Source of the DNA: Gammaproteobacteria bacterium
GTDB lineage: Bacteria > Pseudomonadota > Gammaproteobacteria > RBG-16-57-12
Assembly (NCBI GenBank): GCA_021647245.1
Contig: JAKIVC010000029.1
Span: forward strand, 1 to 39,977
Direction of reading: 5' to 3'
DNA: 39,977 nt
In this document: one piece after another, positions 16,931-21,376 of the stretch
Numbering within the stretch: position 1 is the first letter of the stretch
Layout of the letters: every line of letters starts with the position of its first letter
Made by a program: the position numbers and the translations under genes
The notes under the pieces: generated by a model
The model's input: only the letters and a program-made list of their open reading frames with translations
Database searches by the model: none
Told to the model about the DNA's origin: nothing

Positions 16931-17971
<1,041 letters not shown>

Positions 17972-17997
17972 TTTTTCTGGAATAATCTGAAACAGCG

Positions 17998-18035
17998 AAG
18001 GGGAGGTTGTGCTTAGGCATATCCCCCCTTTTTTG
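17998..18035 (+). terminator. Rho-independent terminator after ilvC
   Basis: AAGGGGAGG (17998-18006) pairs with CCCCCCTT (18023-18030) around one bulged A, and a TTTT tract follows. It lies 27 bases past the ilvC stop and before the psd-like gene, separating the ilv genes from the phospholipid genes. Confidence 0.7.
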
Positions 18036-18085: not shown

Positions 18086-18691
18086 ATGGCTTTATATGTA
18101 ACACCCATCTCTGAGTCGACGCGACTGCCGGTTGCTGCGTTATTGCTGTTATCACTCTTCTGTCTGTTGTTTTGGTCGGTAGTGGTGGCGGTAGCGTTGC
18201 TATTGCTGGTGCTGTTGGTGATATTTATCTACCGGGAACCCATACGAAAGATACCCTCTTCTCCGCTAGGGGTTCTCTCCCCTGTTGATGGGGAAGTGTT
18301 GTCGATTGAGACGGTGACAGAGAGTCAATTGGAGCGTCAGGCTATTGCGCTAACCATCAAAATGCAACGCTTTGGGCCCTATGTTGTGCGTAGCCCGGTA
18401 GAGGGAAAGGTTATGCGGCAATCGTATAATGCATCGGCCAGAACCTACTCGCAATGGATTCAGACGGATGAGCAGGATGATGTGTTACTCAATATGATTG
18501 CAACACCTCTGAGTGGTACGCTTCATTATCGGGTCTCTGCAGGCGAACGCACTGGTCAGGGTGCCCACTGTACGGTATTACGTTTCGGCCGCGAGGTTCG
18601 GCTATATCTGCCTGTCACTTCGCAGCTCAAAGTGAAAAAAGGTGACAGCGTGCTGGCCGGTGAGGATATACTAGCTCTCTTAGTGCATTGA
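18086..18691 (+). CDS. Phosphatidylserine decarboxylase-like protein lacking the pyruvoyl serine
   Basis: About 201 residues, similar in size to short Psd proteins. A long hydrophobic segment (about 15-48) anchors it, followed by YREPIRKIPSSP and LSPVDGEV (64-71), both typical of Psd. In active Psd the protein cleaves itself at a Gly-Ser (FGSRV) and the Ser becomes the pyruvoyl cofactor. Here the site reads FGREVRLYLP, with Arg169 in place of Ser. The DVH-x-NR-x-P motif is also replaced (FGPYVVRSP). It therefore probably does not decarboxylate. Position directly before pssA keeps a link to phosphatidylserine metabolism likely. I chose ATG 18086 over 18041 because AAAGG precedes it. Confidence 0.78.
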   Translation: MALYVTPISESTRLPVAALLLLSLFCLLFWSVVVAVALLLLVLLVIFIYREPIRKIPSSPLGVLSPVDGEVLSIETVTESQLERQAIALTIKMQRFGPYVVRSPVEGKVMRQSYNASARTYSQWIQTDEQDDVLLNMIATPLSGTLHYRVSAGERTGQGAHCTVLRFGREVRLYLPVTSQLKVKKGDSVLAGEDILALLVH

Positions 18692-18775: not shown

Positions 18776-19570
18776 ATGGGGCTATCAACTGAAGGCGATA
18801 CTAAACGTCGTCGCGGTATTTACCTGTTACCAAATCTATTTACCACCGCTTGCCTGTTTTCGGGTTTTTTTGCAATCATATCGGCGATTAATGGCCAGTT
18901 TGAAAGCGCCGCTATGGCTATTTTTGTGGCCATGGTGCTGGATGGGCTGGATGGGCGTGTTGCACGAATGACCAATACCCAGAGTGATTTTGGTGCCCAA
19001 TATGACAGCCTGGCCGATATGGTCTCATTTGGCTTAGCTCCAGCGTTAGTGGTCTACCTGTGGGCATTTGCCGATATGGGTAAATTGGGTTGGTTAGTTG
19101 CTTTTATTTTTGTTGCCTGCGCAGCACTCCGTTTAGCGCGCTTTAATACCCAGGCGGGTGTGGCGGATAAACGCTATTTTCAGGGGCTGGCAAGCCCAGC
19201 CGCTGCAGCGGTTATTGCGGGCCTGGTTTGGGTTGCCGTCGATTTTGAGTTATCGGCCTCTGCGCTGGTGATCCCCGCCTTTGTATTGACCCTCGCCTCA
19301 GGATTGTTGATGGTGAGTAATATCCGTTTTCGTAGCTTTAAGGATATTGACCTCAAGGGTAAAGTGCCCTTTTTTACCATTTTGGTGGTGGTGTTGATAT
19401 TTGTCTCTATTGCTGTTGATCCGCCACTGGTACTGTTTGCTATATTTTTGCTCTATGCCATGTCGGGTGTGGTTTCGACTATTTTGGGTCGCAATAAGTT
19501 ACAGGCCAAGTCCAATGAATCAAAGAGCGGTGCGGCCAGCAAAACAGATGCTAAGGAGAAAGATGATTAG
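18776..19570 (+). CDS. pssA: CDP-diacylglycerol-serine O-phosphatidyltransferase
   Basis: About 264 residues. The CDP-alcohol phosphatidyltransferase motif D-G-(x)2-A-R-(x)8-G-(x)3-D-(x)3-D is present in DGLDGRVARMTNTQSDFGAQYDS and LADMVSFG. Multiple membrane segments follow. The enzyme makes phosphatidylserine from CDP-diacylglycerol and serine at the inner membrane, and the family type is the integral-membrane PssA of Bacillus-like and many proteobacterial species rather than the E. coli type. I chose ATG 18776, with AAGGAAAAG upstream; an upstream TTG at 18737 is in frame but lacks support. A partly paired stretch (about 18708-18765) precedes the start. The C terminus is a Lys/Ser-rich tail. 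Confidence 0.93.
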   Translation: MGLSTEGDTKRRRGIYLLPNLFTTACLFSGFFAIISAINGQFESAAMAIFVAMVLDGLDGRVARMTNTQSDFGAQYDSLADMVSFGLAPALVVYLWAFADMGKLGWLVAFIFVACAALRLARFNTQAGVADKRYFQGLASPAAAAVIAGLVWVAVDFELSASALVIPAFVLTLASGLLMVSNIRFRSFKDIDLKGKVPFFTILVVVLIFVSIAVDPPLVLFAIFLLYAMSGVVSTILGRNKLQAKSNESKSGAASKTDAKEKDD

Positions 19571-19631
19571 CGCCTTGGCAAGCTCAGGTTAAAGCGTTAT
19601 AGTTTTTTAAAAGCATTCTGTATTAAAATTA

Positions 19632-19840: not shown

Positions 19841-21376
19841 ATGACTGACAAATTAATTATTTTTGATACAACACTGCGTGATGGCGAGCAGAGCCCTGGC
19901 GCGTCGATGACTAAAGATGAAAAAGTCCGTATTGCCAAGTCTCTGGAACGGATGCGTGTTGACATAATAGAGGCGGGTTTTCCCCGCGCCAGCAAAGGTG
20001 ATTTTGATGCAGTACAGGCGGTCGCACGTGAGATAAAAGAGAGCACAGTGTGTGCACTTGCGCGGGCACTGGATGCTGATATTGACACAGCAGGTGAGGC
20101 TTTGAAAGAGGCAAGCTCTTCGCGTATTCACACCTTTATTGCAACCTCACCCATTCATATGGAAAAAAAGCTACGTATGACACCGGATCAGGTGGTTGAG
20201 CAGGCGGTAAAGGCGGTAAAGCGTGCACGTAACTGGACCAGTGATGTTGAGTTTTCCCCTGAAGATGCCGGGCGCTCCGAGTTGGACTTTCTCTGTCGGG
20301 TGATTGAGCAGGTGATTGACGCAGGTGCCACCACAATCAATATTCCGGATACTGTGGGCTACAATGTTCCGCAGCAGTTTGGTGAGTTGATCAGAAATTT
20401 GATGGCGCGTATTCCAAATGCTGATAAAGCGGTGTTTTCCGTGCACTGTCATAACGATCTTGGTTTGGCGGTGGCAAACTCGCTGTCGGCAGTAATGGAG
20501 GGTGCACGTCAGGTGGAGTGCACCATCAATGGGTTGGGGGAGCGTGCTGGGAATGCTGCTCTCGAAGAGGTGGTCATGGGGGTGCGTACACGCCAGGATA
20601 TCTTTACCTGTGATACCGGTATTGATGCCACCCGCATTGTCTCAACCTCTCGCTTGGTCTCAAGTATTACCGGTTTTGCGGTGCAGCCGAATAAAGCCAT
20701 CGTCGGTGCCAATGCCTTTGCTCATGAGTCGGGCATTCATCAGGATGGTGTATTAAAAAATCGTGAAACCTATGAAATTATGCGTGCCGAAGATGTTGGC
20801 TGGTCAGCGAATCGTATGGTGATGGGTAAACACTCCGGGCGAAATGCTTTTCGGACTCGTATGCAAGAGCTGAGTATTTCGTTTGAATCAGAAGAGCAGT
20901 TGAATGTGACATTTGCCCGCTTTAAAGATTTGGCAGACAAAAAGCATGAGATCTATGATGAAGATTTACAATCACTGGTGTCAGAGTCTAAATCAGAGGC
21001 GGTTAATGAGCCGTTTAAACTGATCTCCATGAAGGTCTGCTCTGAAACGGGAGAGGTGCCGGTTGCCGCACTGACTATCACGGTAAAGGGTATTGAGCAA
21101 CAGGGGCAGGCTGAGGGGAGTGGCCCGGTTGATGCGGCTTTTAAAGCGATTGAATCGGTGGTCAATAGCCAGACCGAACTTCAGCTCTACTCGGTCAATA
21201 GTATTACCAGCGGTACGGATGCGCAGGGTGAGGTGACGGTTCGACTCGAGAAAGGTGGGCGTATCGTTAACGGGCAAGGTGCGGATGTGGATATTGTGAC
21301 GGCCTCTGTTAAAGCTTATTTGAATGCATTGAATAAGATTGCTGCGCCGGAAGAGCGCGCACACCCTCAGGTGTAA
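19841..21376 (+). CDS. leuA: 2-isopropylmalate synthase
   Basis: 511 residues, the usual length of proteobacterial LeuA. Acetyl-CoA plus 2-ketoisovalerate gives 2-isopropylmalate, the first committed step to leucine. The N-terminal TIM barrel has the [15 protein letters not shown] metal-site motif, [13 protein letters not shown], and [29 protein letters not shown] follows, then the C-terminal regulatory LeuA dimer domain with leucine binding (from about residue 385). The preceding GGTGGAG provides a ribosome binding site. Its position after ilvBHC and pssA is common in some proteobacteria, and a 270-base leader with a possible leucine peptide precedes it. Confidence 0.97.

Follow-up and report, generated by a model that had tools for sequence, protein, structure and literature searches.

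PsdL, a putative pseudoenzyme of the phosphatidylserine decarboxylase family encoded beside pssA in Gammaproteobacteria

Does a gene of the phosphatidylserine decarboxylase (Psd) family still encode an enzyme when its product carries FGR at the site of self-cleavage, and if not, what could the protein be doing next to pssA? The question arises at positions 18086 to 18691 of the window, by which we mean the whole stretch of 39,977 nucleotides analysed here, where a sequence-only reading had proposed a catalytically dead Psd relative acting as a regulator or lipid-binding protein. We refer to the protein as PsdL (gene psdL), a name coined in the present analysis. The features of the gene are as follows.

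18086..18691, plus strand: psdL, putative Psd-family pseudoenzyme of 201 aa; PF02666 match, catalytic residues lost
18113..18229, plus strand: two-helix N-terminal membrane anchor, residues 10-48 (AlphaFold2 helices 10-29 and 32-48, hydrophobic sequence)
18380..18382, plus strand: Tyr99 codon, at the catalytic His position in the alignment of 110 family members
18467..18478, plus strand: Asp128-Glu129-Gln-Asp131 (DExD), clade-specific near-invariant hairpin (D128 and E129 100%, D131 96%; variable in intact Psds)
18548..18550, plus strand: Arg155, invariant in the degenerate clade (93/93 degenerate vs 7/17 intact gammaproteobacterial Psds)
18590..18592, plus strand: Arg169 codon, at the position of the pyruvoyl-forming Ser, aligned exactly with the FGS of intact small Psds

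A Psd-family protein and its catalytic positions

The translation of 18086-18691, which contains GAHCTVLRFGREVRLYLPVTS, matches PF02666 in Pfam with E=2.4e-10 and 40.9 bits against a gathering score of 22, and together with the shared fold this identifies PsdL as a homologue within the PS decarboxylase superfamily. The features expected of the enzyme itself are missing, namely the Gly-Ser site, the catalytic His, the GxFxN...NER segment and an equivalog-level NCBIfam score, all NCBIfam Psd models falling far under their cut-offs (best 95 bits vs 225). FGREVRLYLP occupies the FGS cleavage-site position, with Arg169 in place of the Ser, and Tyr99 aligns with the His of NVFNVHSNR in intact relatives, so that both the loss of the cleavage Ser and the replacement of the DVH motif were read correctly from the sequence. 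A Gly-Ser at another position was sought by reading through the translation, and the whole 201-aa PsdL has none. SPVDG with Asp68 and the membrane anchor are retained as described, whereas the length is kept only roughly: RSPxEGK and the WxxTDE strand are joined by a shorter stretch, from which the GxFxN...NER region is gone.

The PS headgroup is contacted by Tyr137, His144 and Ser166 of E. coli Psd; mutating H144 abolishes activity, and the S254A protein remains uncleaved (PMC7952604). Reading the sequences by eye, we find that Ser166 appears to lie in the segment matching GxFxN, which is LFSVN in the second Psd of the window's own genome. A PDB sequence search with PsdL returned no relative. 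Cys162 was considered as a new nucleophile and rejected, being Cys in only 71/93 degenerate proteins and Ser in a congener.

The PsdL proteins of two congeners are 90% and 64% identical to this one and have FGR as well, in open frames, and none of the gammaproteobacterial matches listed has an in-frame stop; a sequencing or assembly error behind FGR is therefore ruled out. The same Arg, which the sequence-only reading advised looking for in related genomes, is present in both congeners; across the clade, 21 of 93 degenerate proteins have it. The position varies (A24, R21, G21, S15), which led us to discard Arg as a functional innovation.

Ancestry and conservation of the degenerate clade

A PsdL homologue was found in 122 of 369 sampled Gammaproteobacteria, nearly always in the order ilvC-psd-pssA-leuA. 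In an alignment of 109 extracted homologues and the query (110 proteins), 17 have both His and Ser and 93 have lost at least one of the pair; we call the latter degenerate. The His position holds Tyr in 56 and Phe in 24 of the 93, against His in 17/17 intact proteins. All 15 degenerate proteins that keep the Ser lack the His, and two have the His without the Ser. The segment that follows the catalytic His in intact small Psds separates the two sets almost completely, GxFxN and NER being present in 45/45 and 42/45 intact but only 1/93 and 0/93 degenerate proteins, in which the length of this region is variable. PF02666 still matches 85 of 86 clade members at E <= 0.01. Apparent fusions in long open frames (568-577 aa) were dismissed, the extra residues being unassigned sequence that lies upstream of the Psd-like part and over ilvC in another frame.

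A phylum-wide search with the clade profile added 28 readable loci, 3 of them gammaproteobacterial and 25 from other classes; His and Ser are both present in 28/28, and ilvC, pssA or both adjoin nearly all of them. Other classes of Pseudomonadota thus have an intact small Psd here, as do 17 gammaproteobacterial loci, and the older form of the ilvC-psd-pssA-leuA arrangement is therefore the one whose small Psd is active. When the tree is rooted with sequences from the other classes, the degenerate proteins fall into a single clade (SH-aLRT 99), which persists with the trait columns masked (SH-aLRT 100); both rooted trees left out three long-branched degenerate rows, and an unrooted bootstrap tree that includes them has one branch, with support 100/100, splitting intact from degenerate proteins. 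On these alignments a single catalytic loss would be enough to account for the tree pattern. In outline the history is clear: other classes have an intact enzyme at this locus, and one loss followed.

The degenerate set has acquired constraints of its own. D128, E129, G153 and R155 are invariant in it, and E106, D131, G157 and Q158 are conserved at 91-99% (D131 at 96%). D128, E129, D131, R155, E106, G157 and Q158 are variable in intact gammaproteobacterial Psds, whereas G153 and G159 are common to both sets; the DE.D motif occurs in 89/93 degenerate vs 3/45 intact proteins. For psdL, comparing the window with each congener gives dN/dS of 0.14 and 0.19, and comparing the congeners with each other gives 0.23; pssA has about 0.05 and ilvC 0.02-0.04, and psdL is thus under purifying selection, weaker than that on its neighbours. 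The marks of a pseudoenzyme under selection are all found, namely open frames, dN/dS of 0.14-0.23, a single clade and new invariant residues, and we consider it very probable, judging from sequence, that PsdL is a non-decarboxylating protein of this kind.

A second Psd in the genomes

If PsdL does not decarboxylate, another protein could. In the window's genome (64 contigs, 99.5% complete), an intact psd of the E. coli type lies elsewhere, at G000:C16:8550-9206 (E=7.9e-64), with the motifs CPVDG, YHRIHMP and MGST; this answers the search for a second psd that the sequence-only reading had called for. Genomes with an intact locus copy have no other PF02666 match (19/19, including G029 and G196, whose intact status was judged by high Pfam score). 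By our own tally, genomes of the degenerate-locus type, those with psdL, number about 102 of 369, and about 97 of them have a strong Psd match (E <= 1e-20); the degenerate copies, where listed, score only about 1e-8 to 1e-10 against PF02666, so the strong match must be a second gene. The two states exclude each other: where the locus copy is intact, a second Psd is absent.

Five draft genomes with PsdL and pssA (G089, G193, G218, G242, G316) had no detected intact Psd: either the drafts missed the gene, or phosphatidylethanolamine (PE) is made otherwise or not at all. G218 and G316 belong to the same genus and are 95-96% complete (locus L067:1932-2594, plus strand). One of the second copies in the degenerate-locus genomes, the E. 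coli-type psd at G180:C8:71872-72451, is split over two frames, by a frameshift or an assembly error.

The idea of a catalytically dead Psd relative beside pssA is thus strongly supported: the predicted inactivity rests on the loss of Ser, His and substrate segment, an intact Psd is encoded elsewhere, the state is clade-wide, and the gene is under purifying selection. Inactive members are known from other enzyme families, and PsdL is a new case; a search of the open-access literature, with subscription journals mostly uncovered, gave no description of a Psd pseudoenzyme, of a PS decarboxylase-related protein or of the ilvC-psd-pssA locus. Pfam-based annotation would label psdL a phosphatidylserine decarboxylase in about 102 of the 369 gammaproteobacterial genomes sampled, over a quarter. 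At the least, this means a systematic annotation error affecting metabolic models of PE synthesis, and PsdL, mislabelled in databases as an enzyme, probably acts as a conserved partner protein without enzymatic function.

Fold, neighbourhood and possible roles

The AlphaFold2 model of PsdL, based on 86 clade members, has a mean pLDDT of 94.9 and consists of helices 10-29 and 32-48 and a beta domain. Foldseek alone gave no match to it below E=0.001. Structural comparison gave Z 14.5 for IIA-Glc of the sugar phosphotransferase system, whose fold the beta domain resembles (127 residues at 2.6-2.7 A), Z 10.2 for E. coli Psd and Z 8-9 for M23 domains. IIA-Glc is not an enzyme but a regulator acting by binding to other proteins, and we rejected a similar role for PsdL based on fold likeness, because an intact small Psd examined as a control gave the same picture (IIA-Glc 14.0, E. 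coli Psd 12.5, M23 8-9.6); the likeness is a superfamily trait and no evidence for a new function.

Among known systems, PsdL is homologous over its whole length to the small Psds of the PRK05305 type (NF003680, NF003678) and to archaetidylserine decarboxylase (TIGR00164), with which it shares the two-helix anchor, beta domain, SPVDG and ilvC-psd-pssA-leuA locus, but it scores far below their NCBIfam cut-offs, lacks the cleavage Ser, catalytic His and GxFxN...NER, and has gained DExD and Arg155. With E. coli-type Psd (7cnx, 7cnz, 6l06; PMC7952604) it shares the Asp of SPVDG and the fold (Z 10.2, 136 residues at 3.8 A, a comparison that covers only residues 5-167 of the PsdL model since the E. 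coli chain ends at the cleavage site). Unlike that enzyme it lacks LGST and the His, and it has an integral two-helix anchor rather than E. coli-type amphipathic helices.

The genes and signals around psdL are as follows.

16955..17971, plus strand: ilvC, upstream neighbour (upstream in 88/92 degenerate loci)
17993..18035, plus strand: terminator-like hairpin and T-run between ilvC and psdL (-23 kcal/mol, z -4.06)
18776..19570, plus strand: pssA, type II CDP-diacylglycerol-serine O-phosphatidyltransferase, likely co-transcribed with psdL (TIGR00473, 127 bits vs cut-off 107)
19841..21376, plus strand: leuA, conserved downstream neighbour by gene order

pssA directly follows psdL in 88/92 degenerate loci. 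The hairpin after ilvC, which is absent from the list of a simple terminator scan, suggests that psdL-pssA is a transcription unit of its own, and PssA is therefore slightly favoured as the partner of PsdL. Since the gene order predates the catalytic loss and was inherited, the position next to pssA says little about a role specific to PssA. The joint presence of psdL and a type II PssA in a genome is uninformative on linkage, because type II PssA is present in 345/369 genomes. The pssA model TIGR00473 has two matches in the window's genome. In two genomes of family f76 (G205, locus L051; G078, locus L113), psdL stands with ilvC while the pssA match is on another contig; the psdL-pssA linkage is therefore breakable without loss of psdL.

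We tentatively favour PssA as the partner, within the following scheme. PsdL would be the inherited copy of psd, a gene of the ancestral Pseudomonadota operon ilvC-psd-pssA-leuA, and in one gammaproteobacterial lineage, in genomes that have an E. coli-type Psd for the reaction, self-cleavage and decarboxylation would have been lost once. The fold and the two-helix anchor would have been kept while the signature of DExD hairpin, Arg155 and Glu106 was acquired. Origin, single loss, anchor retention and new signature are supported by the alignments and trees, which make these the firmer steps. Uncleaved PsdL would then dock via its new surface, on the cytoplasmic side, to a partner in the membrane; the likeliest candidate is the adjoining PssA, and PsdL might set the stability or activity of PssA or its coupling to the downstream Psd. 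It is conceivable rather than likely that in a large gammaproteobacterial lineage the type II phosphatidylserine synthase has PsdL as a dedicated non-catalytic subunit, and the earlier suggestion of a regulator moderating phosphatidylserine synthesis is carried forward as a hypothesis. For a pseudoenzyme acting on PssA speak the catalytic losses, the single clade, the second Psd, the invariant residues, the dN/dS values, the adjacency to pssA, the hairpin and the confident model (pLDDT 94.9); against the PssA partnership stand the inherited adjacency, the G205 and G078 arrangement, the five genomes without a detected Psd and a dN/dS above that of the neighbours. Were PssA the partner, PsdL would be a new regulator of the committing step to the major membrane lipid. 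As a subunit it would be a pathway enzyme turned regulator of the preceding step after a Psd encoded elsewhere took over, and a previously unrecognised control point of PE synthesis.

Another partner, such as the E. coli-type Psd (in its assembly or membrane placement) or a different membrane protein, is rather unlikely. The ancestral gene order would make the pssA synteny a mere inheritance, the degenerate form almost always occurs alongside an E. coli-type Psd, and in a few genomes psdL lies near ilvC and not pssA; yet five genomes hold PsdL without a detected Psd, and PssA is the product of the nearest gene, co-transcribed by the hairpin evidence. Still less probable is a new catalytic or ligand-binding activity, for which the invariant D128, E129 and R155 and the nearly invariant E106 and D131, all variable in intact Psds, could provide the acidic and Arg residues, the related M23 fold being a host of metal sites. 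These residues could equally form an interaction surface or be structural, and no conserved His or Cys offers itself for a metal or nucleophile site (Cys162 is found in 71/93 and is Ser in a congener).

That psdL is a slowly decaying relic, kept by operon structure or translational coupling, is improbable to much the same degree. Its dN/dS exceeds that of pssA and ilvC, its branches are long, and about two thirds of the sampled genomes have no locus Psd of any kind, but the frames are open in all matches listed, dN/dS is well below 1, and the newly invariant residues extend across the whole class. A role in binding phosphatidylserine, or in using the old lipid pocket to pass it on from PssA to Psd, would fit the Psd-like fold, membrane anchor and SPVDG; this is very doubtful, because the substrate segment GxFxN...NER of that pocket has been lost along with the His and Ser, and the idea of a lipid-binding relative is weakened accordingly. 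A Psd active through an alternative cleavage site is highly implausible: Ser is kept at the site in 15/93 clade members, but these lack the His, PsdL has no Gly-Ser and no substrate segment, and E. coli Psd S254A stays uncleaved (PMC7952604).

Promoter-like matches in the psdL region are no more numerous than expected by chance. The best of the region, at 19575-19603 (TTGGCA-17-TATAGT, 10/12), lies between pssA and leuA, and leuA may have a promoter of its own.
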